A stretch of 64,000 bases of DNA, taken from Trichobilharzia szidati. Lineage: Eukaryota > Platyhelminthes > Trematoda > Strigeidida > Schistosomatidae. Position 1 is the stretch's first letter, and every line of letters starts with the position of its first letter. The stretch lies in the NCBI GenBank assembly GCA_944472155.2, contig OX235275.1, positions 28,200,865-28,264,864 on the forward strand, given 5' to 3'. The translations under genes were made by a program, and so were the position numbers. Positions 5,701 to 41,700 of this stretch are shown here, piece after piece. Under the pieces are notes generated by a model. The model saw only the letters and a list, made by a program, of their open reading frames with translations, did not search any database and was not told where the DNA came from.

Positions 5701-8700
5701 CTTTGTTTATTGAATCAACTGCAAATACATGTAATAAGAATGACTCATCGCCTGTCCCCGATATCTGGAAAATTCTCTTACCCCTACGACAAATAGGAGA
5801 AAACAAAGAAAACTATAAAACTCAAGTGTCAAAGTCGTGTGATTACAATTGATATGATTATGAACAATAAATTTTATTCGAAACGTCATCCAATAAATAA
5901 TACTGTTTCACTGTGTGATATATCTAATAAACAAACTAATATGGAGTTTCTAAGCTAAGCAAATAGATGGAGATCTTCAATAGGGACATGTATACTACAT
6001 ACAGGTCATTAAAAACTATCCCGATAACTTTCCGATTGATCTATTATTATTATTATTATTAATGTTATTACTATTTCTTCAATAGGAATCCACATCTAGA
6101 TCAGTGAAACTGACTGGTCCACTTGACAGTGTCTTTCCAAAACATGTTGCAGAAGTTGCTAAACGAATCGGTTTACAACCTGTTGGATGGATTTTTACAG
6201 ATTTAGTTGCTCAAGATCCTGGTGGCAATGGTGTAGTGAAGCATTTTCGTGGGTCTATTGTAAGTTTAACTTTGTTCTTTGTTTATTTATTTATTTTTTG
6301 AGCAATTAATTTATACTCCATCAATGTTTGTAATGCTTTAGTTTTGAAAAAAAAGATAAGAAATTAAATTTTCATGTCTTTTCCTAAGTAGATTGTTGAA
6401 TAGGTGGTACTCAAGTAGACTGTTTATCTAATTTGAAAGCATTCAAAGCTCTACAAAACTAACACTTGTAAATTAATCCATATTTCCACCCGCCACACAC
6501 ACCCACACCCCATTATAGTGATGACTGACTACGAATTAGACTTCTTGGAGTGTGTCTAGTGAGAAGTTGTGACCACCAGGATCCATCAAGCTGGTCGTGT
6601 GGATAGGTATTCATCGATTATTATATCATTGGTGGTCGACAGTAGCACTGTATATCAGCAATTGACAGAGATGTAAGAATTCACTAGCCTACTGAATTCT
6701 GTTTTCCACTGACTAATTGGCCAGGTGTTGTTCACCTTTTAACTCCCGAGCGTCATGGATGTATACTGTTGAAAAGAGTTTCGGACTAGGAGGAAAATGA
6801 CTGTCCAGTACTGGTTTTCAATAGTGTTCTATTGCTGATAATGGTTCATGATGTAGCCTAACTTGAAATATTCTAATTTTTCTTTACTAAAGTAACCTAA
6901 GTGAGATGATTGAGTACCACCACTTTCATAGAGATATTCAGTTTCAACGAGAAATATAAGCCGAATTTACTACAGGTTTTCGAACTTCAAAATTGGACTC
7001 AACAATGATATCTTTAAAGTCAGTATTACCTGTGGAATGCAAGACTTATATTTCCCTCTACTATTTCATGGCTCAGTAGCCTAGAAGTTTGTGTTTTTGC
7101 GTTTAGAACATAGTATGTCGTGTTTAAGTGTCAGTAGGAACGCTATGATTTAGTAAAGAATATTCAGGTTATCATTTCATTTTATTCCTTTGCGCGTTCC
7201 GTGTGAAATATATATATATATATATATATATAATTATGTTTGTAAAGTCTCAGCGAGATTGAAATGAATAATTCCAACGTTTCGTTCGGCAATCTGGTCC
7301 GAACTTCTTCAGGGAAATTAATCGAAATTAACATAACAGAGGTTTATATATAAAAAGGAACATCACTTGTTTTTAAAAATTTGTCCAATCATGAGTCATT
7401 CAACGAGTATCAACAAGTAAAATAAACAAAATTTGACCTCGGACTTACAAATATTGGTCTACCTTTGTTAAACACTTTGAACAGAGTGTGTATGTGTGTG
7501 TGGGTAAACAGTTGTAAGACATTTCTTAATGTCTCCATAAGAAGATATGGACAGTCAAGAATTTTAACCAAGTATTAATAATTAGTGATACATATCCATT
7601 TTTTATTTATTAATTATTCTGTCAAATCTTGATGACAGTTCATTTGAATTATTTCGCAATCGAGTTAAATTAACAAAGAAACTGTGTAATTGGCACAATC
7701 ATCGTGTTTTCACTCTCCGTTGGCTGCAACAGAATGCATATCCTAAATCCGTAGCTGTAGAGTCACCTGACAACTCCAGTAGGTCGATCAATCTTCAGAA
7801 AGAAGACAAAGCAATAAGTCAGACGGGGTGCTTCTACTAAACTCTAATCCTAAACACCATAATTTTGAAAATACGTCTAATCATAAAATTCTAGATACTA
7901 ACCGTTTGAACAGCCATGAAGGCGTGATGTTAGCTGATGCATAGGAAATTCTTATTAATAAATAAAAAATGGATATGTATCACTAATTATTAATACTTGG
8001 TTAAAATTCTTGACTGTCCATATCTTCTTATGGAGACATTAAGAAATGTCTTACAACTGTTTACCCACACACACATACACACTCTGTTCAAAGTGTTTAA
8101 CAAAGGTAGACCAATATTTGTAAGTCCGAGGTCAAATTTTGTTTATTTTACTTGTTGATACTCGTTGAATGACTCATGATTGGACAAATTTTTAAAAACA
8201 AGTGATGTTCCTTTTTATATATAAACCTCTGTTATGTTAATTTCGATTAATTTCCCTGAAGAAGTTCGGACCAGATTGCCGAACGAAACGTTGGAATTAT
8301 TCATTTCAATCTCGCTGAGACTTTACAAATATAATTTTTTACAAACGTCTGCTTCTCACTCGGTGCCCAAATATTTTAGAACTATTCTGTGAAATCTTGA
8401 CGACAGTTCATTTGAATATATATATGCATATATTTATAAATATGTATAGAACCTCGCTTAGATTACTAGCTCACTAGTTTTCTAGCCGGTCCGAAGCCCA
8501 GGTGGAACGGACGAGGATGTCAAATCGAGAATCGGGAAGGCGAAAAACACATTCATCAACCTGAAGCCAATCTGGAAATCGTCACTCAGCATGAACGACA
8601 AATTTCGGATTTTCAATACAAACGTCAAGTCACTTCTTCTATACGGATCAGAAACTTGGCGGCGGGTGACAAAGAATATTTCCAACAGCCTGTTGCAGAC

Positions 8701-11700
8701 CTTTATCAACAACTGTCTTCGCTCTATACTGAAGATCAGATGGCCGGAAAGAACAAGAACCAATAAGAAACAATGGGAACAAACAAAACAAGAACCAATC
8801 GCCCAACCAATATGCAGGAGAAAGTGGAGATGGATTGGACACTCGCTGAGGAGGTCGCTGGGTGACATCACGCGTCAGGCCATAGCTCGAGTGGAACCCG
8901 AAAGGGAAGCGGCGAGTGGGACGTCCAAGGGTGACATGGAGGAGATCGTATGAAGAGGAATTGAAACAGTATGGATTAACATGGATGCAGGTGAAACGTA
9001 CAGCAGAAGACAGAAGCAAGTGGAGATGTGCAGTTGAAGCCGTATGTTCCACTAGGAACCCAAGGGAACAATAAATTAATAATAAATATATATATATATA
9101 TGTATAGAGCTTCAGTTTGCAATTAATAGTGTTCTCTGAGCTGGTTGGTTTAGTTGCGAAGCTTTCGTCGTCCTTCTGGACAACATCTTCAGCGCAATAT
9201 TTAGCATAAAGTGAAATGATTTAAATTTCTTCATGAGTGATATAATTGCGTCTCCTGGTAACCATCTTTACATATGTATTGACCATTTTCTATTGACTTG
9301 GATTTTAAACTTTCTGGTCACCTGATTTACTTTTTATTAGTTGGTATATTTCGTCTATATTAACGTGTTTGTTAATTGCATTTTCGTTTGAGTACCAGGC
9401 TTCTAGGAATTCCCTGGCACTTTTGGTGTTTCCTCTGTCTAAGATTTTGACATTATCCCAATCAAATTGATGTCCATAATTGTCTATATGCATTGATACT
9501 AAAGAATACATATCGTGTCTTTTCACGGCTGATTTGTGTTCTTGGATTCTGATTCGAAGGGGACGCCCACTTTGGCCGATGTAATGTCTGTTACAGTTCA
9601 TACAATTTATTTTGTAAATGGTATTAATTTTATCCCCTTTTTCTGTTGGATCTTTCGGTTTGCATAATATCGAATTAAGCGATTTGACTGGCTTGTGTGC
9701 TATATCTATATCAAACGGTTTCAGTATTCTAGCTGTTATTTCAGAGATATTTCTCATGTATGGTAGGATGAATTTTCTTGTGGTCTTTGATGATGGTTCC
9801 TTGTTGGTGTTTTGATTCGACTTTAAACACTTTTTGATGAAATTTTGTGGATAACCATTCTTTTTGAAGACCGTTTGTAGGTACTTTTCTTCCATTCTTT
9901 TCAACTCTGGAGTGCTACAATGTGTCTGAACTCTTTTAAACAATGTCTGCACACAGTTTCGTTTGTGAGTAACTGGATTATTGCTAGTATAGTTGAGTAT
10001 TTGATCTGTGTGCGTTGATTTTCTATATACTTGTGTTTCTAAATTTCCTGTGTTGGTTCTCCTGATTAAGACATCTAAAAATGGGATTTTGTTATCTAAT
10101 TCTTCTTCTCTTGTGAATTTGATGTCTTCAAATATGTTGTTTATTAATTTGTGGGTATATTCTAAATCATTTCTCTTAATTATTACAAATGTATCATCAA
10201 CGTAACGTACCCAGATTTTCGGTTTAATTATAGGTAGAGCTATTAATTCTAATCTTTGCATAACGGCTTCAGCTATTAATCCTGATATGGGCGATCCCAT
10301 TGGTGTTCCTTTTATTTGTTCATATATTTGAGTATTGAATTGGAAGTATGTTGTAAGGCATAATTTTATGAGTTCTATCCAAGTTGAACATTGCGTTTTT
10401 ATGTTTTCATCACTATAGAGTAATTGTTGCATAGTTTCTGTTGCTAGTTTTGGACTAATTGAAGTATATAATGCTGTGACATCAAAGGACACCATTATTT
10501 CATTGTCTTCTACTTGAATGTTTTTGATTTTCTCTAAAAATTGGATTGACGAATTGATAGAATGGTCACATGATTCTGTTAGGTAATTTAATTTCCTGAA
10601 AAGTTCTTTAGATAGATTATATGTTGGTGTTCCTGGAAGCGAAACGATTGGTCGTAAGGGAATGTTTGGTTTGTGTAGTTTTGGTCTACCATAGAATCGA
10701 GGTAAAATAGGTCCGTTAGATTTCATTCGCCACTGATCTTGTTCTGTAATTTGTCCTGATTTCGTTAGTTTATTTAACGTTGTTCTGATTTTGTTATCTA
10801 ATGTTTGTATAGGGTTTTTTGTCAACTGTTGATATACATTATTATCTTTGAGTAAATCCTCTGCTTTCTTTATGTAGTCTTCTGTGTCCAGGATTACTGT
10901 TGTTCTTCCTTTATCAGCCGGTAGAATAACTATATCTTTTCTATTCTTCAGTTTCTTCAATGCATTTTGCTCTTCAGTGCTAAGTTGGGAATTATGTCTT
11001 TTCTGTTTGAGTATAGGTATGATACACTGACGTATTTCTTGTTGTACTTCCTCATTTAATTTTGATAATTTGAGTGATGATTCTAAGGAAGCACAAAAAT
11101 CTGTTACTGAAGCGTCACCAGTATTGTAGTTGAGTCCTTTCTGAAGAAGTTGTTCTTCTGCTTTCGATAATGGTTGTTTGGATATCTTAGCTAGTTTTCC
11201 TTTGAGGACAACTCGTCTTCGTTCCTTGTGTCGTTCGCTTAATATTTTAATGGCAGTATTCAATGTTGACAGATGTTCTGGCGTAAGAGTCTGTTCAACC
11301 TTTTCTTTATGGAATCTAATCATATGCTGGTATTTTTTAATCCTATTGTGTGCATCCGTGATCATTAATTTCACCATTTTTTTCCATGTTGTTTGGCTAA
11401 TTTCCAGCCTAGAGGACAGTTAATTGATGATTTATATTTGACACTAGCTGGTAAAATCTGCTGGTGGAGAAATTCATGAAGAAAGAATAGTTGTTCTTCT
11501 GTAGAAACTTGCCTTTTAGCAAAGTCTTCCCATTTTCGACACCAGAGCTTCAATGCCGAACATTTTAAGTTTCAGTAGCAGTGATGCCTTAGCGTTTTAC
11601 GGGTTAGGGTTGTCAGTCTCACACCCAATCCTGCCTGTTTATCAGGCTTTCAATCGGCTAAGCGACGTTTAAGTATGTATCGGCCGGGATTGTACCCTCG

Positions 11701-14700
11701 GCCACATGAGGCGTGGTTGGTGAGTATTCTACCACTGGAACCACTGATGCACTGAAGAGCATTCAGATATCTTTAAAGAACGAGAAGAAATGTACGTTTT
11801 GAGATTGATATTCACCTGATAACCAGCACTAAATATGATATGTGTAACGCTTCATTTGTCGTTTGTTTTCACAATTGTCATTAGAAATACATGTGTCTGT
11901 TTTCACTTGAAATAGACGATCTGGTTTCATGCTCATGTATGATAGATGGCATGGATGAGGATGTCAAAACCAACTAGGGTCGAATCGGATCGGGGAAGCG
12001 AAACAGGCGGTGATTTTTGCATAGAACTCTCTTTGAAGAACTGAAACACTTAGCACAAGAAATAAGAATGGGGATGTTTCACGATAATAGTATCATATCA
12101 GTACTTCTTAGTCGTTCAAGGACCTAGTACTTCACCGGGAACATTTCCAACAGGCTACTTGAAAATGATTTGGATATAAGACTGATGGAACCTTCAAGTG
12201 ACATCACATCAGGCTTTCTAGTGGAAGCTGAATGAAAAGCAACAGGTTGGATGTGCTAGAATAACTTACAGAAGATCATGAAGTGTGGAAAAAACGAACG
12301 TTTGTGGTCAGTCGTGAAAATGGTGGCAGAGAATTTTGCATTGAAGTACAGTAGTTTAGGCTGTCAGCCACCATCCAGCATGCATATGGTGGAGGAAAAA
12401 GAGCGAAGCTAAAGTGTCATAGCTAAAATCACAGTGACCTTGTACAACCAATCAGAATTTAGATGCAACAAAAGTCACATAGTCATTGAGAGATGTATTA
12501 AAAACGTTTTAAACATGATATTACATTGGACAATTTTCTCTAATGTGTTGTAGAAATGTCTCTCAGTTTCTTCAGGGATAATCCTCAGAGATATCTTACC
12601 ACAACCGATACATCTATTCATCGAGGTAGGCTCCTGTAAATCTTACTACTTTGGGATCCACTGATATTCTTGATTCTTTCCCTCTCCCTCACCCAAAATC
12701 CTTCGAAAGAATTAGTTTGGGTGCCTGTGATCGGATCCACGACATCGGAGGAGTGGTTGTCAAGATGGTGAATATAACCCAAACTAGTTATATCCCCTCC
12801 ATTCGTCAATATATGTGTGGTCGTTCCTGGCATTATCAAGCGCTGAACAATTGGAATTAATACCCCGGTACTTCCTTTATTGGGCATTGTTTCCACTAAA
12901 CCTTTACGTACTGAGTGAGGCGTCGTATATTCCAAGCACCCAAACTTGATTAGCCCTTCTCGCTGCCCTGTTACACTTCTTCTTTATGAGGACAGTTTCA
13001 TCAATTTGAACGATCGCACTACCCTTACTTCTCCTCCGAGGAAGGTGGTGATTCTCTCCAACTTCCATAATGTTATGTCTCTACAATTCTGATACTGTAG
13101 TACTGCAGAGACACCGGACTGTTTTCCAGCTGGTGCTGCCCTTAAAACAGGCCTTTGAGAAGTTCAACAATGTATATGAACCGTAGGAAATTTTACAAAG
13201 ACATTTTAGATTTGGAGGAAAAAATACCTAGGGAATAAGTGAAATACTCCACACCTACCCTCACAAACTGATTTTCTCGTATAACATCAATGACATGCAT
13301 AGCAGTATTTATCTCCCACAAGGTCATATTGTGATAGTCTGCCTCAACCCACCATACACACACAGAGACGTCTTCGTCACTGTAATTAACACAGTAGTTA
13401 AATACTCGATCTCCATGGAACACATTAACCAAAGCCATAAAGGCAGGCATAATTTCGATTCGGAATAACCTTCCGTGGTATCCTCTCAACCTGATTGGTT
13501 CTTCAAGATCAACTTTTCGAAGGTCTTGACTTTGGCTACGATAGTTGTTTAACTTCTCCGAGAAAAATATTCAAAAGAACTATTATGAACAGAAATATAT
13601 TCGGAATTGAAGAGCAGTAATATGTGGAAATATAGGGATTCAATCAAAGAGTGAATGCATCTGCACCATTCATTGGTTGGTCCTTAGCATCCCTTGGTTC
13701 CCAACCAGGTAGGTAGTCTACATCCCTCCCGTCCCCCACACCTGTTTGTGGCTCATAAATGGAATTTGTAAATCCTACTGGGAAAACAAACTTATGAGTA
13801 ATAATGAAAATCTAAGTCAATCAATAATAGTTGCAAAATAAAGATTTTCAAGTTCTCGTGTTTTATTTTTAATTCATCACTTTTAATGGTTAGGAGTGAA
13901 ACATACATTCTTTTTTTTCCTCATATCCCATATATAGGACACTTTCTTTTTAAGCGCTGAAGAGTGTATTACAGCTGCACACTTTCAAAATCTGTATCCA
14001 AATATCTGTCGTCTTAGTCCAGATGGGTGTTTCGGATCGAAATTTGTCACTGTTGTCGTCACCGGTGATGCATCAAATCATATCCATTTTGAAGCTTATC
14101 AAGTGAGTAATCAAGCTATGGCATTGGAGAAGGATAATATTTTAGTTCCAACGTATGATGCACCTGAATTGGGTTATATTCGTGAGACTACAAGAGAACA
14201 ATTTGTACCAGAAGTATTTTATGCGGTAGGTGGTGGCGGTGATGGAGGTGTTTCGTTTATTTATCACTTTTATTTTCTGTTAATTAACTGTTATTCATTC
14301 AGAATTCGAACATTTTAACTAGCTTAAGGTGGTTCGTATCTGATGACGTCGGTGTATCGAATGAGTGAGTTGTCATCACCACTACTGGTTATGATTTGAG
14401 GGAGTGGTCTCCGACTACTCGCTATCACTCAATTAGTAGTATGTAACTTGATGTATTATTGTTAATTATCTTCATTGAATTATCGTACCTCGCATATATA
14501 TCCATCTTTTACCAATGGTCAAGTTGAAAGTTGTCACCACTGAACATCTGTGCCAAACGCTAACTGAATAATCAATTGGTTACAGGATTTCATCATGAGT
14601 TGACATCGGTCAGAGTACCATTGAAAATCTAGCAGGGAGTACTGGATAGCTGTTTCTTCCTAATCTGGTACTCCTCACCAGCACGCGCCCACCACAAGAG

Positions 14701-17700
14701 TTCGAACCTATGACCTTCCAGTTACAGGGCGAGTGCGTAGACCATTAAGCCACTGGGACCTCCTGATCCAATGGCCCATACATTCTAACTTCTGCCAATT
14801 CACCATATAGAGCGACCACTAGCCGATGTTTAAGAGCTCGCTTTGTAACCTGTAAGTCCTGGATTCGAGCCCTGGTGGGTGCGTACTGGTGAAGAGCCTC
14901 CGGCTAGGAAGAAACAGCTATCTAATATGCTCAGCTGGTTTTTGCGATGGCTCTCTAATTGATGTCAGCTCATAATGAAATTCTGTAACCAATGTAATCC
15001 CTGCAAACCAACATTTGAATAATCAGTGGTAGAACTTTGAAATAAAGTGCAGCAGTTGAATATGTTCCACTTTGTAAAAGTGCATATTAAGTCACAAGGA
15101 AGAAATGCACAAGAACCATAGTAACAAAAAATGTGCAATAGGAAGAATGATTCTGACGAAGATTTAATGAATGTGTAAGTTGACAAGAAGTGAATTCACT
15201 TGAACCATTGAAAATAATTTTGAGTCATGTTACCAACACTCTCCAACTATTTGTTCTTAGTAGCTTTGCAAAACTATGGATCTCCTTATAAACGTTCTCA
15301 TTGTTATATTATAATTATTATTCCTTTAGACTCTAAGCGAAACATAGGACTTCATTAACAGCATTTGTTGACCGTATCCTGTTGTCTTCAGTCCTCTGTG
15401 GCTGGCTCCATGGTCGCCCATAATCTCTAACCGTTATCTCGCACAATTTCCTCTATGTTACCTTCACATCTATGCACAAATTGTCGCTTCCAGTTCGACT
15501 TCCACTTTAGGCCTAGCCTGGCGCGTTATTTCACTCAAATGAGTGTCCTCAGCGTATGACCATTCCATCTCCATTTTCTCTAGTATATTTGTTGAGCAAT
15601 AGGTTTCTTGGTTGGTTCGTTTTCTAACAAGAGTTTCTTGTTGCTTTTTTTTTGTTTTGACTGGCCATTTGATTCAACGAAAGCAGCTACAGTGCCACCT
15701 GTTAGAAATTATCTTCGTCACGGATGCGCCAACTCTAAACACAATCACTAGTGCTGTTACAATATTCGCTCGATGTAAATTTATTCAACCGATGGTATTT
15801 TTCACTTATCATACATTAACAAATACTGCAAAAAAAAAACACCACGATACTACATACTACTAATAGATTGATATGAGTAGTTGCATCCACTCAAATCATA
15901 CTGTAGCGCTTAGCAGACCCATTAGTTATGATGCAGATGCCCAAACAAAAAGCAACGGACTGCTATTCCATTTTGTGAAAATGTTACTGGTTACTGTACA
16001 ACCACTTGCATTTCCATGCAGTTAGCAATGAGCCATACCTCTTGTATGGAGAGGAGATGACACTGACTAGCTGAACAAACCTCTGTTGGTGGAATGGGAT
16101 TCAAGCCCGTGAAGAACTGGTTGGAAGTTGAGCACCTACGTCAATGGGCCGCAGGTTCATTCCATCTCCTATAACTTTGACTTGGCTTAACTGGTGCTGT
16201 TGTATTCTATTATTCATAGATTTATAACTGTAGAACTTGAAGAAGAAGAAGAAGTTATTGACTAAAAATATTTAACCTCAAAATGTTTCTTGTTTTGAAG
16301 CCAAAGCAGATGGTGAATTACCACCTTGAACTGTGTGTCTAACCTTTGCTAATTGTGACAGAATAGACATAATCTGTCATGTCCACTTGATGCATCTTCT
16401 GTCTATTGGTGGAATGTAATCCAAATGACTGTGAAACTCTCGGGTCCTAAACTAGACATCATTCATCAAACTGCTACCTCCAAAGAATCTTACTACTTAA
16501 TAATATTTAGTAGTGGAAATAGTATTCATAATTTTTTATTGGCATGTGATTTGCTCGTGCCAGATTGCAATACACCGAATTCCAGGTTAAAAATAGAGAG
16601 GGACGTTATAGAGCATGTTGGCCACTTAACTTATCTACAAATCTTCATAGGCCGCAGTGGACTGATTAGTGATGAAATCTCAGCCTGGACACAAAAGGCT
16701 TTTGCGCCATTAGCCAACATACGTCATCTCTGACGAAGGCCTGATATCGGGCTTTCGATCAAACGACGTGCACACTGTGCATGAGTTCACTTCTTCTTCT
16801 TCCTTTTTGGCTGTGAGACATGGCCATTGAAGATGTGAAAAGGCCAGTTGTCTTTGATCACATGTATATTTTCATCCCATCTCGTGTGGTAAGGAGGGAT
16901 ATTCAATCAATGAGCTTATTCAGCCACATCAATCCAGATGGATAGGGCAAATGTCGATCGTGCGGAGTCGTCGCTTTCCTCAATGTGCAATGCTAGTTAA
17001 CAAGTAATTAGGTAGGAAAGGAGTTGGCGATGATCAAACGAAAACCCGTCACCAATCCATGAAGTTATTGACAGTCGATTTGAACCAGCCAAGTAGGGAG
17101 GTGTAGACTGTCTGGTTGATGTCCATGGGATTCTAAGAACCAATAGCTTGAGATCAGTAGTGTTCTCAGTGGCGCAGATGTATAGATTCCCTATGATTCC
17201 CTATATCCACCTAACCATCATCTTTTATTCATGGTACTGTTCTTTCTCCCTCACATTACTGCTTATTTTTCCTATTTTCCCTAACTATGCGTGCTACATG
17301 AATGGAGTTCCTCACTTCTGTGCTAATTTCTATGTTAAAACTGACTCAGTCAGTCAGTCAGTCGAATCTTTTATTCGCGAACTTATGTGGTCACTGTCAT
17401 TTAGCCTACAGCATTAAGTGTAGGTGTTCAACAAAATCCGTTGATAATTGAAATATAATCGCACATATTACTTATCGATTTTTAAGTACTTTTAGTTTCC
17501 TGTGTTTTCTAATTACTTAGGTTAGTTTGTTAATGTGGATGGTAGTTCACAAAAATTGTGCACGTTAGATCAGGCTGTCCTTAGTCCAAGGGATGTCACA
17601 ATCCAGTGGCTGATACCTTGATGTGGTGATTCGGGTTGCATATCGCAATAATTCAACGGGCTGAACTGACTGGAAAGAAGTCTTATGGACTTCCTCCTAA

Positions 17701-23771: not shown

Positions 23772-26700
23772 GATGTTTCTGAAATAACATATAGAATAAT
23801 AAAATCATTAGGAATAGATATCACACTAACCAGGACAATCACTTCATTCAATACTACTACGGAACAAAAGAACTAAATGAGAAAGAAGACAAGATCAAAA
23901 TGAATCTCATGAACTGCCATAAATACTGAATTAATCAAAGTGGGCATCCCCTTGAACTCAGAGAGTGCAGTCGCATCATAATCACGGGAGTATTTGGTAG
24001 TGACATAGTCATTTGCAGAAAGGATGAACAGTTATAATGAAATACACAAAAAACCTTATTACATTGAAATCTCTGTTTGCACATGTACTTCTGTTGTCCT
24101 TTCTTCTATGTTTTTTGTGTGTATTCTTTCACAATGGGTTTCCCATTTCTCCTTTTTCACCGTCTAATCTGTCGCTTGGATATTCAATAATTATTGCAAA
24201 AGGCGAGGTCACACGCTCACAATATCCTACTTATTAGGTTTTGTCAGTAGCACACGTCATACAACTTCTTCTGTCACTACACCAGTTAACAATGGTTTTT
24301 ATGGTTTACTTTGACTCTGGTACTGTCAAATGCCTATATTTCAATATAATTATGTCATTCATATTTGTTATCTAACCTACGGTTAGTTGTCTGCACGTAA
24401 CCAGCAAAGCATACCTCACTACTATCAGCCAATGGGATAAGAGTTTAATCCCCTCTGCAACCTTAACCCAACCAATTCTGGGCATTTGGGTAGTGCCATC
24501 GGCTGTCCAACTTTAAGTTTGCCCTCAAAGCATAGCTCGTTACATATAAAAGCACGTTCTTAAATAAGTAGTGAGACATCGTTTAACTCAAGGATAATGA
24601 CAAAAGTTGTTTGTAAAAATGTTTGTACTTTTACTTGGAGAACTTTATCCACAACAAAAGCCTAGTCGTAGCGAAGAATTGAAAAATGCATCAAATGTTT
24701 GACCTCTTCCTACTGTTCTATATTAAATTTTGACTTTTTGTAGGGATTTGATTGGTTTCAGTATAGATTTGAGAACTCAGGAGCACTGGTTATCCGTTTT
24801 GTCTTAGTTTGAGGCTCTTCAGCAGTGCACAGTCATGATCCATCCTACAAAGGATTGGACCCGTGACCTTCTGATGTCAAGGTGACTCATTTGACTATTT
24901 AGTCACTGAGTTAGAATTGAATGATTCACGGATTGCAATTTCTGTGAATTCGTGATATGGTAATATGATATTAGATAGTTGGAGGCAATCGGCAGGAAGC
25001 CTTGGACCTAGGTTTCGTGCTAGTTGGCACTCATCAGCAAGGCGTATCTGCGACCTTGAAGGAACTCATGTCCCTTCTGAGATTTGAACCCGCGTCACCC
25101 AGTGCTGCAGTCAGATATGGTAATATACCAATGACCCTAGTGAATCTGGTCTCTTAACCTGGCGCACTCCTGAAGCATCCATATAGCTGCTGTTACGCCT
25201 TGATTTTCCCCAGCTGATATTTTAGTTCTTGACAAAATCTACATCGAAATTGTCTGTACTCGTATTGTATCTTGGGGTGACCAGTATCGCTGTGTATAGA
25301 TTTCTTCATGCAAAAACCAAATGTTTCTACAGAATAATATGAGGCCATCATTTATTTCGTTGGATTGTCTTCAGCTGCTTACAACCTAAAAGTTGGTTGT
25401 GTAAATGTACACAGAACTTTGTCATAGTTACAAGGATCAACATGATTTTTGTTAGCAGAGACACATGTTAATGAACAACACTAAGAATTTCCACTTCTGT
25501 AACTTATAAAGGAGATCAAGGTTCAAACAAAATGCAAACACACAAAATTAATGGTCGGATACATAGAAAATAGAATTGCATAGTGAAGATAAGAGGCGAG
25601 AAGTTGATGATTGAGATGAAGGGATGAGAAATCGAGTGAGCAATGCAAAGAAAGACTAATAAGCCAATCTTTCTGAACACGTCAGGTTTTAAACGTTCAA
25701 TATTGGTTACTTCGGCTGATTTGAAGAGAGGAGAGTTGTATTGTTTATTAATAATCTTGAAGGATTTCATACTGTCCACCTCATCGCCTGTATCAACAAG
25801 ATCTCTGGCAGTAGCACTGTCCAAAGCATTTGTTCGCTTGAGACGTAAACGTTTTGGTACATGTTCAGCGAATCAATTGAAGATAAGTTCTTCGTTCTGT
25901 TCCCCAATTGATGCGCAACACTTTTCTTACATGAGTCGCAAACGATAGCTGTTTTCTTGACATACTGACTGGTCGGGCTTGTATATCGCTGTCGCTCGAT
26001 GAGCTATGCTGCCTGGAACGTGTGTTCTTGTTTGGATATTGGTTGGACTAAAAGCAGGTATTATCACAGTGTTAGTCGTTTACACTATGTTCGGGGTATG
26101 GTCGGAATATGTGTGCCCTTCAGGTGACCGATTCTCCGCTCTTAGGACAGGTGGCTGAAAACAAATGTCGACCCCGAATATTGTACATTCCGGCCTACTT
26201 TGTGGCGGCCTGTAGCCAGCGGTATGATCCTTATACGAACACACTAACAGATCGTGTGTATGTGTGTATGTGACAGGCCTGTAACATTCGTCCCCTGGCA
26301 TCTGCAGTCACGCAGCACTAATTCTCTAGTGTAGGCAATCGGCAAGTAACAACCACCACCCCGCCACACACACACACACATCCACTAAGCTATAATGAAG
26401 AATGACCCAATAGGCAAACATCTATGACTAATTATATAGAAGTATCGCATAGATGAACAGAGATTGTAAACAGCATTTCTGCCATCAGATTGATTGAATT
26501 AGTCACACAGTGATTTATAATAATAGTTATAAAATCAATATGCCTTTTCTACATTTGTAGTATGTTATCTGTTCATTTGTAGTGTGTGTTGTTATATGTT
26601 CGTTGATCAGTTGACAAACTGAAATAAAAACTGTTTTTCCGATGTAATAGAAACCTTGAAAGTGTGTGTTAGTTACATCGAACTCTCGGCATACATTAAT

Positions 26701-29700: not shown

Positions 29701-32700
29701 GGTAGATAAGTGAAGGAAGTGACATCTTTCAAATTTCTCCCGTTGATAGTGACTGGTGCTTGTTGTTGTCGGTTGGTAGGTTATCTTCATCACCTCCGTC
29801 TTCTCAATGTTTACCTGAAGTTCTATCTTCGCTGACTGCTTCTTCTGCCAACTTGTTGGTTTTCACCTGTAAGTTTTCGAGTTTATGTGATATTAGACAT
29901 AAATCGTCCGTGATGTTCAGACCTTTTAGAGTCTTCCCATCGACCCAACATTATTTCAAGATACTAATGTGACATAAAATATGGTGACCGAGACTGAAGG
30001 ACTGTAAAGCTAGTTAGGGTAGTTAGTTAGTTAGTTAGATACATATCAACACTTTCTGCATGAGGACTGAATTGATACTACCCACTTGGTCAGACTTAAG
30101 TTCATGGAGCGAGATTTGGATCCCCATTGCATCACTTAAGAGTCGAATACATAAGCCAACAGGCCATATCCCCGAAGTTGTGAAGAAACAAAATACAATT
30201 AACTGCGGTTATTCATCAATGTAAGAAGAGACAGATAAATGCCTAGGATTTTCAAAGAGATTTAGTGTGTATTCAATGCATCGCAACCGGATTTTCACTA
30301 TGTCATTCCAACGTCGAGTCCTCGTTAACACTCTTCATACATACTTATGGATTCCTGACACGTCTCCTGGAGAAGAACATGAAACTAAAGCCAAGAAAGA
30401 AGAATGCAGTTCAGTACTAAAGAAACTACTCTATATGACTCTGGATTCCACGTGATAATTATTGGCAGATATCCAGAAGAGGAGAATCTCTAGTCTTCCA
30501 AAGAAGACCTTTCCTGCAGCTGTACTAACAGTGATATTCTATGGCTGCACACTGCTTCTAAACAATTTGAAGGAATAACTCCCTCCTATGGCTATTCCAA
30601 TGTGCATATATCAGTTCATCTGCTCGTGCAGAGCCATGTTTATAGGTTGATAAAGAAAACAAAACTACCAAAGGCAGTGTGTGTATTTCCGACTACTCTG
30701 TACTGCAGAAACCCTCGCCATGCGCATCGAGAAACTGGGGCTATGTGTTCAGAAGAGACTAGCCCAACCTCTACACTCACTATGGATCTAGTTCGATTTG
30801 ACTCCTCAGTTTTCGTTTGTTTTGTCTGTTTTATTCATTCCTTTCATTTTTCTCATCTTCAGTTATAAAAGGGCTATTATTTCACTTTGTTTCCGTGCTC
30901 ATTCTTCTCACACCTCTCTTCGTTATAAAACAACCTATTTCACACATTATGCAACTATTTTCGGATACTGTGTATGACTTCGTTTCTAATCTATCTTCAC
31001 ACCTTCGGACTTTCATATTAAGTGGAAAATTATTATCATCTTTATTCTCTCCTTTCGTTATTATTATTTTTTAATGACTTTATTCCTTTACGTTCCCAGT
31101 GGTTTCAAGCTAGAGCTGTGACGTTTCGATAGCAGTGGTATTTATTTTTACGGGATGGGGTTGTTAGCCTCATGTCCAACCTTCCCTCTTTACCAGTCAC
31201 TATTGGCTTAGCAAGGTAGAGGAGTGCGTCGGCCAGGGATCCAACGCTGAACCACTTGCGTGGCTAGCGAGAATTCTACCACTGTACCACCAACGCACAA
31301 AATATTATCAGGGCGAGGCACATGCACATAGCTCACATCCTTCTCCAGAACTTTCACAAAACCATCAGGTCGCGTATTATCCCATCGCCCTTGGCAGATC
31401 TGGCAATGAAAGTCACGAGAACACCATCAGAGTATATGACAGGTTAGGTACTTCATTCGTTATTATGTGGAATCAAATTATTATAATCACTGTATATATG
31501 TGAACTTATGTATACAAATGAGAATGGGGAGCTGCTTTTCAGGATGAAATCGCCTAAAAGGCATCAGTTTGCTGAACTTCGTGTTTCTGTTCTCTCCGTA
31601 ACTGAATTCTAACAATCTTATCAGAGATTAAATGCTAATCAACAAATTAACGTAGAGTACCATTATTTTTATTATTATTATTGATATGAAATACATATGT
31701 CCTTAGATGCTTTACTAATTTAATTTCTTGTTCCTTATAAACAATGTTAAGTAGCCTTGTAAGGGTCATTATTTATTGTTTATTGTTTTATTGGGATTTT
31801 CTTGTTATAGTTGTTGTTTGTTCGTTTTAAAAGCGTAAACAACAGTTGGAAACTTGACTGGGTCATTCATTCATTGATTGTTTCACTGGAAAATGTTGTT
31901 TTGCCTTTTGATTGGATGATAACATCTCTGCCTATATTATTAAAATGTATCCTGTTGTATATGGAAACATTTCTGGTTGCTTTAACAAAGGAAGAAGGAC
32001 ATATTTAGCGGGAGACTATGAGCTTATCTTTTACTATGATTTCAGGAATTCTTCCAGACCACTAATTACTATTACTACTACTGTGAAGAAGACAAGACTG
32101 AGGAGACTGAAAGGAATGTTTATTTGGTGAAACGTATGGTACATAGCTAAATTTGGAATACCATATTCTAAACCGGCCATTTGCACATCTTCACCACATC
32201 CTTGACGAATTGGTCGAATATCGTCTCATTCGATAGCTTCTTGGATTCTGCATCATATGGCAACATTCTTCTCATGGTTCTCTTCTTTGATTGCTTTTTT
32301 CGGTGTGCCAAACATGTTGTTACTTCGTTCCTGATATACTACTTATATCGGATTATAAGTAGCACTCACCACACTCGCCCCCTCATTATAAAGTCTCTCC
32401 TGTAACCGCCTTGATCGCCGCACAGACGTTTCTTCCTGCTGCTCTTCTGGTACCTCATCTTGACATTCTTCTCTCCATCTTTGTAGCAGACTGGCGTTTA
32501 CTCTTTTCTCTTTATCTCCTCTCTTTATTGTGTACACTGGACCGCGTCTCGATGTGACCACATATGGTCCCTCCCACTTCGGTAGAAGCTTTCCTGATCC
32601 TGGTCCACTTCCGGTAGTATACTTTCGTTCTCTACATTTCACCTGGTCACCTACTTCAAATAGCTTCCAAGCTTTGATTTGTTTCTTGCCATAATTTTCG

Positions 32701-35700
32701 ATGTCTTTCTTGCGCTTCTCTTGTATATTCTGAATAGCTTGTTTCCGCTCATTTGTCCATCTCTTACTGTTCCATTTTTGTTGTGTTGGCCAAGTCTTAT
32801 GGTGCACCGGTAAGCGTGGTTTCCTCCCATACATCAGATGGAAAGGCGACTTTTTTGTTGTCCCTTGTACTGTGGCACGATGTGCTAGTAATACCAACGG
32901 TAAGTCAGTTTCCCAGTTGCCTCTTTTCGCAGCTAGCCACTCCTTGAGTGTACGATTGTTCCTTTCGGTTAAGCCGTTTGTCTGCGGATGATACGGAGTC
33001 GCTCTAATCCTCTTAATACCCAGTGCCTCCAGACGAGTCTTGAACTCCTCACTTTCAAAACAGGGGCCTTGATCTGTCAATATCATTTTCGGTACACCAT
33101 GATCCGCCACAATATGTCGAATGACCGCCTCGGTTACGGTCTTGGCGCGCTGATCTGGAATCGCTACAGCATTTACCCACCGCGTGGCGTGTTCCGTCAT
33201 CATTAAAATGTATTGATTTCCACTTGCTGTCTGAGGGAAAGGACCCATTATGTCCACGGACCATAAGTCACCAACCGCCGTTACGGGTATCGTTTGTAGC
33301 TGCGGTCGAATGCACCGATCACCCTTCATCAATTGACACTGTGGGCAAGCGAGTACGTAGTTTGCAATATCGCCTCTCATGTTTGGCCAGTATGCACTTT
33401 GGCTCACTAGGTCGTATGTTCGTGTAACTCCTGTATGGGCTAGTTGGTAGCATTCTTGAATCACCCCACGACGAAGGCTCTTTGGTATCACTGTAACCCA
33501 GCTACCATCACTGTCTTTCCAAGTTAGGACGCCGGCAGCGTTTAGTTTGAGTCTATGTTTTTGCTGCAGTAGCATCTTTAACTCTTTATTCTCTGCTGCC
33601 ATTTCAATTTCTTTCCCTTCACGTATCATCTGCATGACTGTCTTAAGAGTAGGATCCGACTTCTGGTGGCGAACAAGTTGTAAGGGATCTTGCTCCAAAG
33701 CGTTTACTGCATACGCTACTTCTGGTAGTTCAGTCTCATTATCTGATCTCGACAAATAGTCAGCTATTACATTTTCTTTTCCTGGAATATGTCCAATCGT
33801 GAAGTCATACTCTTGTAGGCGTAACATCCATCGTGATAACTTCCCTCGTGGATCCCGTGCTGTTTTCAACCACTGAAGAGGTTTGTGGTCGGTCTCAATG
33901 TGGAATCGGCGGCCGATCAGATATGGTCTCCATTTTTCTAGTGCCCATACGATAGCTAAACACTCCTTTTCCACCGTAGAATACTTCTGTTCTGCAAGTG
34001 TCAACACACGGCTAGCGTATTCAACAACCCCATCTGTTTGTCTTAAAACAGCACCTATACCATAATCACTGGCGTCTGTCGAAACTGTGAACTGCTTCCC
34101 CGGCGCTGGCAGTTTCAACGTCATCTGTTGACCATCTAACAGCTCTTTAATTCGCTCAAACGTTTGCTGTGCCTCTTCCGTACACATGAATTTCGCGTCA
34201 CTCAGCAACGTATATAGCGGTTTAGCTATCTCATTGAAATCTTTGACAAATCGGCTGTAGAATGCCGCTCTTCCCAAAAACTGTCTCAGCTTTCGCTTTG
34301 AATTTGGCACTTCGCTGGTTTTGACCGTCAGGATTTTCTCCGGCAATGGCCGTATTTCGCCATTTCCCACTTTGTAACCCAGGAGGACAACCGTGGTTTT
34401 AGCTATTTGGGACTTGTGCTTATTAATACGCAGTCCAAAGTCATCAATTCTCTTTAAGATAGCTTCGATGTGGTCTATATGGTCGCTTTCTGTCTCACTA
34501 TACACCACCAAGTCATCTCCAGATACTTCTACGTTCTTCAGACCCTTCAGTAATAAGGTCATTAATCTTCTGAATGTAAATGGGGCACCTACCAATCCAA
34601 ATGGCATTCGTTTAAACTGGTATTGTTTCTGCCCGACTGTGAAAGCTGTTTTACTTCGATCACTTTCTGCTATTGGGATTTGCCAGTAACCCGATCGTAG
34701 GTCGAACACGGTGAATAAATTGGATTTATGAAGGCGATCAAGAGTTTCTGTTACGGTAGGCATTACACACTGTTTTACTTCGGTGAGGCTATTCAGCTGT
34801 CTGAAGTCGACACAAAATCTATATTTCCCGTTAGCTTTCTTCACCAAAAGGATTGGCGAACTGTACGGACTGTCGGCTTCTTCGATTATTCCGTCGTTTA
34901 ACATTTCTCTGACTTGTCGGTTAACTTCTTCTTCAAGGTGAACCGGAACTCGTCGCGATGAAAAGACTGTCTTCCCCGTATCCTTCAGTGGGATGTTATG
35001 CTTTACCTTACCACAATAACCGTATGGGTCTCCATCACTAGTGAATAAACCGGCATATTTACTCATCAACGTGGTTAGACGTGGTGCTTCTTGCTGAACA
35101 TTGGTTGTGGTTTCCACCTCAGCGACTTCACTATTCTCATGTATCGCGAATTGCCCGTGTTTTGTGACTACTTTTCTATTCTTCATATCGATTACAGCTC
35201 CTACTTCTCTGAGAAAGTCTGCTCCCAAAATCGTTCGTCTTATATCAGAAGTTACAATAAACGGATATCGTATTTTTCCTGCTCCAATCTCTACAACGCA
35301 GTCTGAAACGCCAAGAATGTGCAACGGATGTCCTCCTACCGTCTGAACTGCTAATGTGCACGGCCTTATTTCCTTACACTGTTCTCTACCTATCAACGAA
35401 ACTGCCGCCCCTGTGTCGATCAAACAAACTATTTCTTTTTCGTTCACTCGTAATCTCCCGTACACTGAACCTCTTTCGACTAACCCGACCACCTCTAAAC
35501 GCGAGCGAGAAAAAGAAGGAAGACTGTATCGTTTAAGGTTTTTCTGCCTTCTTTTCGGGCAGCTTCTCTGCCAGTGACCGGTTCCTCCGCAAGCAAAGCA
35601 CCTGTTGTTTGTTTTTTTCCTTATCTGCATAGCCGCCATCTGTTGTTTCAACTCCTCAATCTGGTCTTCGATCTTCTTGGAATCTTGGCCTTCCGACATC

Positions 35701-38700
35701 ACTGGAGCAACATGCGAGGTCATTATCTGCCTTGTCACCTTGGCCATTTCATAGACATCCATTGGCTGAGCTGCGTCAACTAGCTGCAACTGATGAGCGA
35801 TATCTGTCGGGACGCATTCGAGGAACTGAGATGCCAGCAACTGCTCCCGTGAATCTTCGTCTAGGGTGGGTAACGCGCGTCGCAGGTGATTCGTCAGCGT
35901 TACTGCGAGAACCAACGGATCCCCATCCTGGCCAAGTCTCAGCGTCCGAAACTTCTGCAGCGCCTCCTGTCTGTCCGCAGGGCTGTCGAACTCGCACACG
36001 AGCCTCTCGACGACCTTGTCCCACGCCGCCTCACCTTCCAGCTCCCGAGCGTTGTCGTACGCAGCCTTCGCGCGGCCCCTCAGCAGCGTTCCCAAGACCA
36101 CCAGCTTCGCCTTCTGCTCCTGCACTCCAACCAGCTCCGCGACAGCTTCGAAGTCCCTGAGGAACGTCCGCACATCTCCATCCTCGAACACCTGCGGCCA
36201 CAGCACCTTCATCTCCGACAGAGGCAGCGACACCAAATGTGAAGAAGACAAGACTGAGGAGACTGAAAGGAATGTTTATTTGGTGAAACGTATGGTACAT
36301 AGCTAAATTTGGAATACCATATTCTAAACCGGCCATTTGCACATCTTCACCACATCCTTGACGAATTGGTCGAATATCGTCTCATTCGATAGCTTCTTGG
36401 ATTCTGCATCATATGGCAACATTCTTCTCATGGTTCTCTTCTTTGATTGCTTTTTTCGGTGTGCCAAACATGTTGTTACTTCGTTCCTGATATACTACTT
36501 ATATCGGATTATAAGTAGCACTCACCACACTACTATTACTATTAATGCTATTCCCTTGAGTTTCGAGTGGAATACAGAGTTTCAGCAGCATATCTCTACT
36601 TCTTCTTGTTCTTTGAAGTTCTCTTTAGCTGGCTCCTCGATGTCTCATAAGTTTTCATTTCCTCTCTCCACTATCTCATCTTTTCCCCCCTCGAATGCCC
36701 AACCCGTCGTTTTACCACGTGGATTTCCCTCATGGCTGGTTTTACGTGGTGTGTGATGTCCCCCTACGGTCTTCTCACTGTCTTCCACCCAATCCATCTC
36801 CATTTTCTCCTGCATATTTGTTGAACGATAGCGTCTTGGTTAGTTTGTTCCTATAGTTTCTTGTTGCCAATTCTTTCTCACCAGCCATCATATTTTCATT
36901 ATGCAGCCGGCTAAGGCAGATGTTGATAAAAGATTGTAATAGCCTGTTAGCAAAAATGCTCTTCTTGATGCACCAAGTTTCTGACCCGAGTGTTGTTGCT
37001 TATGCTGAGTGCAGAAGATTTCCAAACCGATTTCAAATTGATGAAGGTCTGTGTTAACTTTCGAGTTCTGACTTGCTTTGACACCCTCATCCGTGCCGGC
37101 TGTGTGTATTTGAAACGATGCTGTCTAGGTAGATAAGTGAAGGAAGTGAGATCTTTCAAATTTCTTCCCTTGATAGTGATCGGTGCTTGTTGTTGTTGTT
37201 GTTGTCATTGGCTGGTTTATTGTCTGTATCACTGACTGTTTACAATCTGTTAAACAATATCAAAGTGACTAATCTATGAAACAGAATTTCAACATACTTT
37301 TATCACAGTGACACCAAGTTATTTGATAAGAAATAACGTAAATTTGGAAGGATGAAAGTTATCAAAATTATTCATTGTTGAAATGGATAATTATTTCAAG
37401 GATATATGGTTTGACATCATTTGAAGAATATATGTGAAATATCAGGGAGTAGTAGACAGATGTTTTCTCGTAATGTGGGACTCTTCGAGAGAACTCACCT
37501 GTAAGTCGTCTTCTGATGGTTGTACCCGGGATCTTAATGTTTCACTGGGAAGAAATCCTGACTGACTGAAGTTTCAACATGGAACATTGGATAGAAGTTC
37601 AGCAGCAGTTCAAGTTGCCACACTCCATGAAGCACAAAAAGGCAGAAGAAGGAGACAGGAAGAAATGTGATTCTAAAGGGCCATAATATGCAAAATATTT
37701 TGGGAGAAAGAATAGTTACATGGAGATACACTGGGGTTTAATGGATATGGCGAATCACAAAGAGTGAATATCATTGGGGTAGATCTTCAGTCATATCGTC
37801 ACTTCCATCCCGAAGACCCCAATCAGCGAGCCTACACCTCCCCACGTGGCTTGAACTAACTGTCAAAGATTTCATCAACTGATTCCAAGTTTTGGTATCT
37901 CTGAGGGAATTATTGAAAAGTAGCTGGTAGTACTCGACAGCTATTTTGTGACTCTTTAGCGGGATGCATTATAATAATAATAATATAACAATAACCTGCT
38001 CTCATCAAAACCTGACAACTTGACTTCTCTAAAACGCTATAAACCAGGAACATTCGATTCGTCGCCAGTGGGGTACAGCAAGTCGGGTGTAGTGAAAAAT
38101 AATCGCCAGTGTCATTGGCTAGTGATCACGCTAAATCGTGAATTGGCAGAAGCTGGAATTCGTGAGTCATTTGATTAGGTCCCACTGGCTTAACGGTCTA
38201 CGAGCTCGCTTTGTAACAGGAAGATACTGGTTTCAAACTCCCAGTGGGTACGTACTTCCTGATGAGTCTCAAACTAGGCTAACGAAATAGCTGTCCAGTA
38301 CTCCCTGTATCCGGTTTTCCAATGGTTCACCAACCGATTTCAGCTCATGATGAAATCCAATATTCTAATAAATGAACATGTCTTGCGTATTGTTGAAAAA
38401 ATATTGTACATTATGCAATACTGAGAGTGTTGATTTTTATTTTTCTCTTTCCTTTGGAACAGTCATCATGTACCAATCCTAACCTACTTTGATCCGATTG
38501 TTGTAGTCTTAGCAGTGAAGCTATGATAGCCTCATAAAATATGACCTCTTCTTTGACTTCAAAGATTCTAATCGGCTACATACCCAAACTAGACAATATT
38601 AGAATATGAATTATGAAAGGTCTGGCTGAACATACTTATATCGTGGTGACGTTAAATTGACGTAGTTCCATAAATGATATATGTCGATCAGTTATACAGC

Positions 38701-41700
38701 GCAAAAGAAAGGTGCACCCACCGAAATTCGAAACCGGGACATTCTGGCTTCAAAGCGAGCTCATTAGCCACTAGGACCCGATTCGACAGCTCATGAGTTA
38801 CGACTAGTTACTGGAAGTCCTGTGTCCGAATCCCTGTGGATGCGTTCTGATGGAGAGTCCTGAATTAGGATGGAACCACTTTCCAGTACTCTCTGCTGGT
38901 TTTCCATGGTTCTTTAAATGACAACAATCCGTGACTAAACTTGAAACTAATCAAAACCGTATAATGTTGTGCCTTTTGAAAATACACTTGCTGATATATT
39001 TTTCTTTGTTCAAACTAATAAAGGCAATCGGTTGTCTGAAATTCTTTCTGATGTAATTCTAATTCACCTTTACTGACTATGATTGTATGCCAAAATTAAT
39101 CGCTGAACAGACAAGCATGTATAGGAGTTTGAAGAAGAATTTACTACAAAGAATAGTTCTCTCTAGTTGTTTGTATTCTGAAGCTCATGCGAAACCACTA
39201 GATAGCTGATATCAAATCAACAGTTCCAGAGATAAATTATCCAGCAATATGATTGTGATAACTTACTGAATGAATTGTTCAGATTACAGTTGACCTCATG
39301 TGGAATTGAACGCAATTGTATTTCTATTCCTCTCCGATTTATTCTCTACTTTCCTTGCCTGTGAGAAACTAAATTATTTAATTTCAATCTTTAGATTTCG
39401 TCACGAACACTAACACCATTTAGGGGAGAGATCAATGGACAGTAAGGAGGACTAGACCGTTGTTTCGTCCTATTTCGAGACTCTTTTGAGGTGTGCACTC
39501 ATGAATCCACCAGGAATTGAACTGGAAACCTTGAGGTTACGAGACTGCTCGTTGATGATTCACCCACCTGGGCTGGAATCCAATGACTTGTGGTGAGCTG
39601 CCTAGAATGATGGCCACATTGCAAACCTGACTGATAGAATTCAGTCTGCTCCATAGAAAGGACTAGACACATCACACTAGCTACGAGTGTCCAGTCAAAG
39701 AATTCTAACTTTGTCAACTCGTGGTATAGCAGTTTATCCTTGTGGTGTGATGCAAATTGATAGGTAGCGGTCGAAATTGAAATCAACATTTCAAGTGAAT
39801 AGTCGAAGAAGTAGAAGTGTGTATTCCTCAAACGTGGAAATAACCTCATTGGACCACTTGTTTGACCTTGAGCAGCCAATCATTCGCCCCTGTGAAATGT
39901 AAGATGCTGCTACAGGACTGGACTACGTCAACTCCTTGCTTAGTGATAGGGATTGAAGTAATAGAACATGTTGACCACTTCACCTATTTGGGAAATTGTA
40001 TCAGCACCAACGGATTGATTGGTGACGAAATCTCAGCACGGATCCAGAAAGCTCGAGCTGCTTTCGCTAACTTACACCGTCTCTGGCGTAGGCGTGACAT
40101 CCGGCTGTCAACCAAGGGACGTGTATACTGCTCAGCAGTTCGCTCCGTCCTTCTCTATGGCGGTGAGACGTGGCCATTGAGAGCGGAAGACATGAAGAGA
40201 TTGTCTGTTTTTGACCACAGATGTTTACGATCTCTTTCTCGCGTTAGGTGGTATAATAAGGTAAGTAATGTTGACGTTAAGCGTAGAGTGTTGGGCAAAC
40301 AGGGAAAACCACTCGAAGAGGCTATGAAGTTACATAGATTGAGATGGTTAGGCCACGTGCTGCGCATGCCTAACCATCGTCTCCCCCGACGGGCACTACT
40401 AGCTGATATAGGTGCAGGTTGGAAAAGAGTAAGTGGTGGCCAAACAGAAACATGGCCTCATCAATCCATGAAATCCCTGACAGTTAAACTGAGTCAGGTA
40501 GGGAGGGAGATGCAGACTTCCGGGTTGGGGCCCGGCCTCGGGACTCTAAGAATCAATGGCTGGAGACACTAGGTGACATGGCTCAAAATCGTTGTCAATG
40601 GCGCAGATGTATTCAGTCTCTTTAACGTTCATATTCCTTTCTACCATTACTCATTCTGTTTCACTCTTATACTTATCTAAATTCTATTGATTCTCTTCTC
40701 TCATTTTCCTGTCCACCTTTGTGTGCTATTTTGGAACGTGGCAACTCGAACTGCTGCACTTCGGTGCCAAGTTCTATGTTGAATCCAGCAGCAGGGCAGC
40801 CAATCGTTAACCAATCACGACAATTTATTCTCCTCTGAATATCTAGTCAGTGAAATTTGATTATTGTTAAGAATACATAAATATGATGTTGTATTTCCTT
40901 AATGGAAGGTCTATCACATCCTCACCAATGCCACAAATGTTCAAAAATAAGGATAAAACAGGTGTTCAGTGCTCTCCGTGGTTCTCAATAATCTCTTCAA
41001 CTAATGTCGGTTCTTGACGAAATCTAACAACTGAAATTATTTCGATTCAAATCCGGACAAATCTTACAATCGAAATACTAATTCACATTTATTGTGTCTA
41101 GTATTAAAAAAATAATAAAAATGACATTCCACTTTCTTCATTATTTATAATTGTTGTATAATCCCCTTTTTTGTTTCACTCCTCTATTTATTCTATATAT
41201 AGGATATACCCAGTTTTGCTCGTGTACTGCATAAATTCGGACCAAGTCAAATACACACATGCCTAACCAATTTTCATATTCTTGTATGGTTAGCTGGTAA
41301 TGATACACTCGGTCTACAGCTGTTCAATTCAAGCGAAGATGGTAAAGTGAATGAAGATATTCATGGGATAACTGGCCTTTTGAATGCCATAGCTATAGGC
41401 TGTTCAGGAAAATCGTCTACAAGTGTTAGTGAATCTGAAATAGCTATCAAAAAATGGGCAAATAATTCACCTATATGGGCTACTGTTCAAGAATTGGCTA
41501 ATGCTGTGGTCTCTGGTAAGTACATTCTGTTTGTTTTGCTGTTTTTTTTCTTTGGTTTTTTTCTATAAGTGTATTTATCGAAGAAAATGGAAATGGATCG
41601 GGAAGACGCCGAGGAAACTGTCAGGTGACATCGCAAGCCAGACCTTCGAGTGGAACTTGAGTTGGAAACAATGAGTCGGTCACCCGAGACTGACATGCAG

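Follow-up and report, generated by a model that had tools for sequence, protein, structure and literature searches.

The hammerhead ribozyme between positions 24999 and 25043 of the window, which is the whole 64,000-nt stretch analysed here (C5:28200865-28264864 of the 1.11-Gb assembly that we searched), is, by its sequence, part of a 5'-truncated copy of a non-autonomous hammerhead SINE of the avian schistosome Trichobilharzia szidati, an element that could equally be described as an animal retrozyme. The most likely means by which these hammerhead SINEs are inserted is Penelope-type reverse transcription from both target strands. Taken whole, our best explanation joins the truncated SINE copy to Penelope-type two-strand insertion, a ribozyme that would cut multimers and an RNA template that would be uncut or resealed, and we put its probability at roughly 0.7.

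A ribozyme in a truncated SINE copy

The SINE features of the window are as follows.

24992 to 25051, minus strand: full-length hammerhead ribozyme of 60 nt, including the outer stem and internal loop
24999 to 25043, minus strand: match to Rfam Hammerhead_1 (RF00163 covariance-model search)
24967 to 25113, minus strand: 147-bp 5'-truncated SINE body (63-209 of a 340-nt unit), from identity to the array monomer
25114 to 25126, no strand: target-site duplication on the element's 5' side (ATATTACCATATC on the minus strand), a 13-mer repeat
24954 to 24966, no strand: target-site duplication on the element's 3' side, a 13-mer repeat
25081 to 25090, minus strand: B-box-like (pol III) GGTTCAAATC
38252 to 38301, plus strand: degraded hammerhead of a third SINE family, from its bit score and alignment
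14575 to 14993, no strand: old inverted pair of third-family SINEs, placed head-to-head, from a self-inverted repeat (68% over 430) and alignment

A covariance-model search, which the original prediction of a structurally complete hammerhead had proposed as a check, gave a single match above a family cut-off in the window, that of RF00163, over model positions 1-45, to minus-strand 25043..24999 with 43.4 bits (gathering score 34) and E 8.7e-8; under permissive thresholds the top-scoring model at the same place was HH9, at 45.4 bits and under its own cut-off of 52. The letters bear out what had been read there by eye, namely the core of a type I hammerhead (CUGANGA, GAAA and NUH), stem I (GCCTTG/CAAGGC), stem II (GTGC/GCAC) and a palindromic stem III, which is the 8-nt ACCTAGGT; an outer stem, GCAG/CTGC, lies across an internal loop beyond the bounds first given. 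Cleavage is predicted between C25005 and C25004, presuming that the known GUC rule holds. The other hammerheads of the window had been described as damaged, and as far as the model sees this is the case: the only other one listed by the permissive search, at 38252-38301 (+), is a remnant with 21.8 bits and E 1.2. Structural completeness, on the other hand, had been taken as special and proves to be ordinary in this genome, which has 2,626 exact copies of the window's 39-nt core (control 0) and in which all 74 scored RF00163 matches, out of 368,299 first-look candidates, are over the cut-off. A pattern scan of viral contigs gave no hit. As a separate observation, CTGATGAG..GAAATA-like motifs recur in another repeat (L048, L050, L072 and L073; window 25374, minus strand); they resemble a minimal hammerhead without stem III, and have no obvious stem I.

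The perfect 13-mer occurs exactly twice in the window, once on each side of the SINE body, and 24965-25115 is identical to the array monomer at 146 of 151 positions without gaps. The A-box that the monomer carries at unit 43-53 is missing from the window copy, and ARAGORN found no tRNA in the window. The insert probably sits in an intron of an NPL4 gene, whose domains lie at 2377-2781 and 13938-14318 (+), with a zinc-finger exon at 43169-43603 (+; Pfam score under its cut-off); since it is antisense to that gene, NPL4 transcripts would not contain the ribozyme. Elsewhere in the window, a 383-bp inverted repeat of 99.7% identity (7232-7614 and 7954-8336, spacer of about 340 bp) is probably a very young inverted insertion, and identical 294-bp direct repeats (32082-32375 and 36238-36531) around a gypsy-type frame at 32343-36275 mark a very young LTR retrotransposon. 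Two sub-threshold Rfam mir-3492 matches (39976-40053 and 16623-16700, minus strand) sit in a repeated ORF region (16593-16830 against 39946-40180, Pfam DUF6451 in the second), and this microRNA family may be a retrotransposon fragment.

The original prediction had also pointed to a genome-wide search for copy number and tandem units, and had put the unit at 150 bp. Our DNA search gave 43 matches among the 40 scored of 2,173 first-look candidates, window copy included, of which 41 span approximately window 25115-24965 at 92-98% identity (window copy aside) and two are short pieces. Tandem units are present, and the unit is in fact 340 nt long, the window copy being a fragment of it without the A-box. 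The unit consists of a tRNA-like head, a type I hammerhead and two end sites, which we call A and B; the monomer has its A-box at 43, its B-box at 86 and its predicted cut at 171/172, and contains no TTTT, whilst site B lies about 34-59 nt past the predicted cut and site A is the unit end. Copies occur as singles, as pieces longer than one unit, as tandem arrays (with a 340-bp period at C4:78.37M and C5:13.87M) and as head-to-head pairs. Exact junctions at which a unit end meets a unit start number 646 in the genome (reversed control 0), and 38 of the 100 junction places listed belong to one array at C1:150.86M.

The thirty loci fetched from the RF00163 genome matches were all of another kind, which we take to be S-alpha type from the Rfam score and from likeness to the published ribozyme; their unit is 327 nt long. 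Many intact ribozymes are found among these elements too, and the suggestion that the window's family was active more recently than S-alpha gains no support. The proposal that the window's SINE is a family separate from S-alpha stands up in a comparison with this genome's S-alpha-type unit (rather than published S-alpha), in which local similarity does not go beyond a single ribozyme stretch of 40 nt (score 40, with a maximum of 27 on shuffling). Within that stretch, the ribozyme helices of the two units differ by matched changes. In an alignment of 17 hand-chosen variants (10 of the 45 distinct ones of the 340-nt family and 7 of the 16 of S-alpha type), 96.5% of pairs are standard, against 25-36% when the alignment is slid, and both sides have changed in 7 of 17 pairs. 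Three of five covariation measures (cells paired, cells changed on both sides and the covariation score) top all 500 shuffles; the remaining two do not, at 7 against 6.4 for pairs changed on both sides and 11 against 12.9 for further pair types, as would be expected where most changes amount to a single difference that separates the two families. The palindromic stem III is common to three families in different letters (ACCTAGGT in the 340-nt family, ATGCGCAT or ACGCGCGT in the S-alpha type and ACAGCTGT in the third-family consensus), an arrangement that would suit cleavage as a dimer. Of the family's 102 ribozymes read at the loci, those of array units among them, 26 carry the window's letters, which makes this form the second most frequent.

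That the hammerhead arose by chance, or is no more than a relict, is in our estimation very improbable: its folding energy alone is unremarkable (z -0.53, no significance) and the window copy is truncated and lacks the A-box, against which stand the E-value, the covariation between two families and the abundance of exact core copies. The sequences support the reading that the type I hammerhead is real and that its tRNA-headed SINE family is not the S-alpha type with which it shares the genome; as far as the literature searched goes, the 340-nt family of T. szidati is a new member of the schistosome hammerhead SINEs.

Head-to-head pairs and a proposed two-strand insertion

We annotated 91 loci of the 340-nt family: L009-L046 without the arrays L013 and L026, chosen for best similarity to the window copy, and L077-L131, which are exact-junction places on contig C1 (58 of the 62 listed outside the big array were taken and four left). 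Matches at most 30 bp apart were counted as a pair and farther neighbours left uncounted, such as a tail-to-tail neighbour 71 bp off in L020. These samples are non-random, selected as they were by similarity or by a C1-only exact junction, as is that of the S-alpha type, selected by best hammerhead score. The complete compounds comprised 45 head-to-head pairs and 40 singles, with no tail-to-tail ('+-') or other two-part arrangement among them; 14 further compounds were cut by locus edges, including nine more head-to-head pairs, left unclassed, and one three-part compound.

Most 3' ends lie at one of the two sites, A (unit 335-340 or 1-12, above all 1-5) and B (195-232, above all 206-211 and 217), and with four shared-flank loci dropped, 40 of 43 pairs have one outer end of each kind, the others being one BB pair and two odd-ended pairs. 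The A/B pairs number 17 of 18 in the similarity sample and 23 of 25 in the junction sample; were ends independent at 0.5, 40 A/B pairs among 41 classed would have a probability of 1.9e-11, a rough figure as the samples favour B-end or junction copies. The singles include 25 B-ended and 11 A-ended copies. A duplication of at least 10 bp surrounds the whole pair in 27 of 45 cases (0.1 expected from swapped flanks), and one of at least 7 bp in 36 (2.2 expected); 18 pairs have no 10-bp duplication, and two long duplications (L023 and L029) are AT repeats. Inner junctions vary from locus to locus, shared-flank duplicates apart, which rules out the pairs as copies of a single master inverted element, and the single duplication and the A/B rule dispose of two nested insertions. 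Within a pair, the arms diverge by at most 3.5% in 25 and by at least 8% in 16 of 48 comparisons, a total that takes in edge-cut pairs and one duplicate locus; for unrelated copies the median is 8.7%. It follows that one event can use two RNAs. In L132, about 4.5 tandem units make up one arm and at least five the other.

The S-alpha type behaves in the same way. In 26 loci (the 30 minus four duplicates, picked by ribozyme score) there are 25 pairs, all head-to-head, of which 24 are A/B and one AA, plus four singles. Duplications of at least 12 bp surround 17 of the 25 pairs (null 0), the modal length of 13 bp accounting for 13 of those, and four pairs have no duplication of at least 6 bp. Head-to-head insertion within one short duplication, which we took as the mark of Penelope mobilisation, is accordingly a feature of both SINE types. 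A and B share short words within a family, CAATTAAAT in the S-alpha type and TCAAATCAA in some 340-nt copies, which lie at the unit end and at about 212 (S-alpha type) or about 211 (340-nt), as if they were copies of one start signal.

Could these be ordinary SINEs mobilised by a LINE, with the pairs arising by twin priming on one RNA? The tRNA head and the duplications fit a LINE-dependent SINE, and inverted 5' parts are known from LINEs. However, in twin priming the outer end of the inverted part varies and the stretches taken from one RNA do not overlap, whereas here the outer ends are nearly always A and B, the arms overlap and a third of the comparisons (16 of 48) give arms at least 8% different. 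Four other repeat queries yielded 76 HSPs and no head-to-head neighbours, although this is a weak control, and one that leaves the LINE reading some room, because most of these repeats seem to be broken up and old, older indeed than the SINEs, with 65-84% identity among copies. Three of the four have Pfam DUF6451 in their frames, and these we take to be RTE-like. We consider LINE twin priming unlikely, and already disfavoured.

Self-priming or fold-back on an antisense transcript seems less probable still. It has been proposed for the head-to-head Penelopes of rotifers (in the accessible part of PMC3846280), and some inner junctions of the SINE pairs are palindromic, as in L132. Yet fold-back builds both arms from one molecule, whilst 16 of 48 pairs differ as unrelated copies do, six of them within a duplication of at least 10 bp (L031, L045, L046, L108, L112 and L122); barring later gene conversions, such divergent arms within one duplication tell against it, and it leaves outer ends of one A and one B unexplained.

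Penelope-like elements are themselves present in the window.

3818 to 5951, plus strand: Penelope-like copy PLE2, frame broken and 3' end approximate, a relative of copies that insert head-to-head
9305 to 11419, minus strand: Penelope-like open frame PLE1, 704 aa, RVT_1 (Pfam)

PLE1 has a named T. szidati protein 96% identical over 56% of its frame. PLE2 resembles PLE1 by tblastn and shows polymerase and GIY-YIG-like letters by eye, with no Pfam match for its C-terminal piece. By blastn, PLE2 has four head-to-head neighbours in 13 loci with matches (window included) and no other arrangement, on only four readable pairs. In L011 the pair lies within a 14-bp duplication, one arm stopping before and the other after a tail of about 40 nt; L020 and L081 each have one tail-less and one tailed arm, and in L070 a remnant of the tail can be made out by eye on one of the arms. 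A clean duplication is seen only in L011: in L020 it has 9 exact letters, or more by eye if one mismatch is allowed; in L070 it was located by eye; and around L081, where a SINE interrupts the flank, none was found. The same blastn test found no head-to-head neighbours for PLE1 (4 loci, 6 HSPs) or for a gypsy piece (2 loci, 4 HSPs); tblastn does show one PLE1-like copy, in L016, in a head-to-head arrangement. Neither a hammerhead nor a pLTR was found beside the window's PLEs by self-comparison and pattern, and Rfam recognised no hammerhead at the PLE2 end in one PLE2 relative (L040). CTAATAT is common to the tail-less PLE2 end and SINE site B, possibly by chance, with no clear link between the end sequences otherwise.

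Fixed A/B ends, one duplication, variable inner junctions and arms that can stem from two RNAs are what would be expected of two cDNAs primed on opposite target strands. We posit that a Penelope-type reverse transcriptase/endonuclease would cut the target with a stagger of about 13 bp, that both target strands would prime from RNA start sites A and B, sometimes on two different RNAs, and that the cDNA tips of both strands would then be joined. Whether this extends to schistosome hammerhead SINEs at large, as parasites of Penelope and not of LINEs, with an RNP that loads A and B, one per strand, and joins the tips, we regard as evenly balanced. If true, these elements would form a SINE class of their own, and the genome would hold a clear record of target-primed reverse transcription on two strands.

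The predicted ribozyme cut and the copied RNA

As a setter of 5' ends the ribozyme cut can be dismissed: 2 of 131 5' ends fall in unit 170-174, against 1.9 expected if uniform, with only L020 starting exactly at unit 172. Among A-ended copies, 11 of 54 5' ends fall in unit 169-187 against 3.0 expected, a post hoc count that another interval equals for A, and among B-ended copies 13 of 77 fall in unit 255-273. More broadly, 5' ends cluster at unit 55-64, about 180-198 and 255-273, away from the cut, where hairpins or RNA modifications may halt the reverse transcriptase. As B-ended copies cross the cut and 5' ends are unenriched there, the RNA that was copied would itself be uncut, or resealed, at the ribozyme site, and the ribozyme step is then probably the processing of multimeric transcripts. 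We envisage that the hammerhead would probably cut multimeric or array transcripts, and best as a dimer, by way of its palindromic stem III.

A full retrozyme cycle, in which ribozyme-cut and circularised RNA serves as template, is compatible with Penelope-type two-strand insertion, and we entertain it tentatively. Circles or multimers would fit copies longer than a unit that run across unit end to start, the arrays, and head-to-head arms of several units as in L132, and animal retrozymes do make circRNAs (according to the accessible part of PMC7229834). The 5' ends show no excess at the cut, however, and linear array transcripts would account for the same copies.

Comparison with known systems

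Hammerhead SINEs have already been described from schistosomes, and S. mansoni has some 38,500 candidate hammerheads (accessible part of PMC2770079). The 340-nt family resembles the S-alpha SINEs (Sm-alpha and Sj-alpha), as far as these are described in the available portions of PMC2770079 and PMC8490949, in its tRNA-like head with A- and B-box, its dispersed copies with target duplications, its type I hammerhead of equal helix lengths and palindromic stem III, its end about 40 nt past the cut and its unit of several hundred bp. It differs in sequence outside the ribozyme core, and similarity over the full element to S-alpha, as represented by this genome's S-alpha-type unit, is lacking. No Penelope-type insertion signature was found for schistosome SINEs in the titles and opening abstract lines listed from the literature searched, in which most subscription papers were absent.

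The animal non-LTR retrozymes, in the text available of PMC7229834, offer a second parallel: units of 170-400 nt, a type I hammerhead, tandem repeats, target duplications of more than 4 bp, and platyhelminths among the named hosts. Indeed, the 340-bp arrays fall within their description as 150-450-bp tandem repeats with a type I hammerhead. Unlike them, the 340-nt SINE has a tRNA-like promoter head, and the text available reports no head-to-head pairs with two fixed ends. As the source of the enzyme that mobilises hammerhead SINEs and animal retrozymes, the same text names Penelope-like elements as strong candidates from co-occurrence, tandem copies and shared hammerheads. A/B pairs with a duplication of about 13 bp are genomic evidence on this point, spanning two hammerhead SINE families and a few copies of one Penelope family in the same genome, and the A/B-pair test can be applied to any schistosome assembly.

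The Penelope-like elements themselves offer a third comparison. In rotifers, the accessible part of PMC3846280 describes head-to-head ends (pLTRs), a single duplication of 8-10 bp and a tail that one inverted repeat may carry, whilst in vitro the Penelope protein of a lizard cleaves both strands, extends them and initiates reverse transcription at internal positions (PMC11167929). The SINEs share with such elements their head-to-head inverted terminal parts, one short duplication that encloses the entire insert, a choice of two 3' ends, one tail-less and one tailed, and partial tandems; they differ in that the SINE codes for nothing and in an A-B distance of about 130 nt against 30-40. In the pairs described here, the priming on both strands that was seen in vitro for the lizard enzyme would have its in vivo counterpart.
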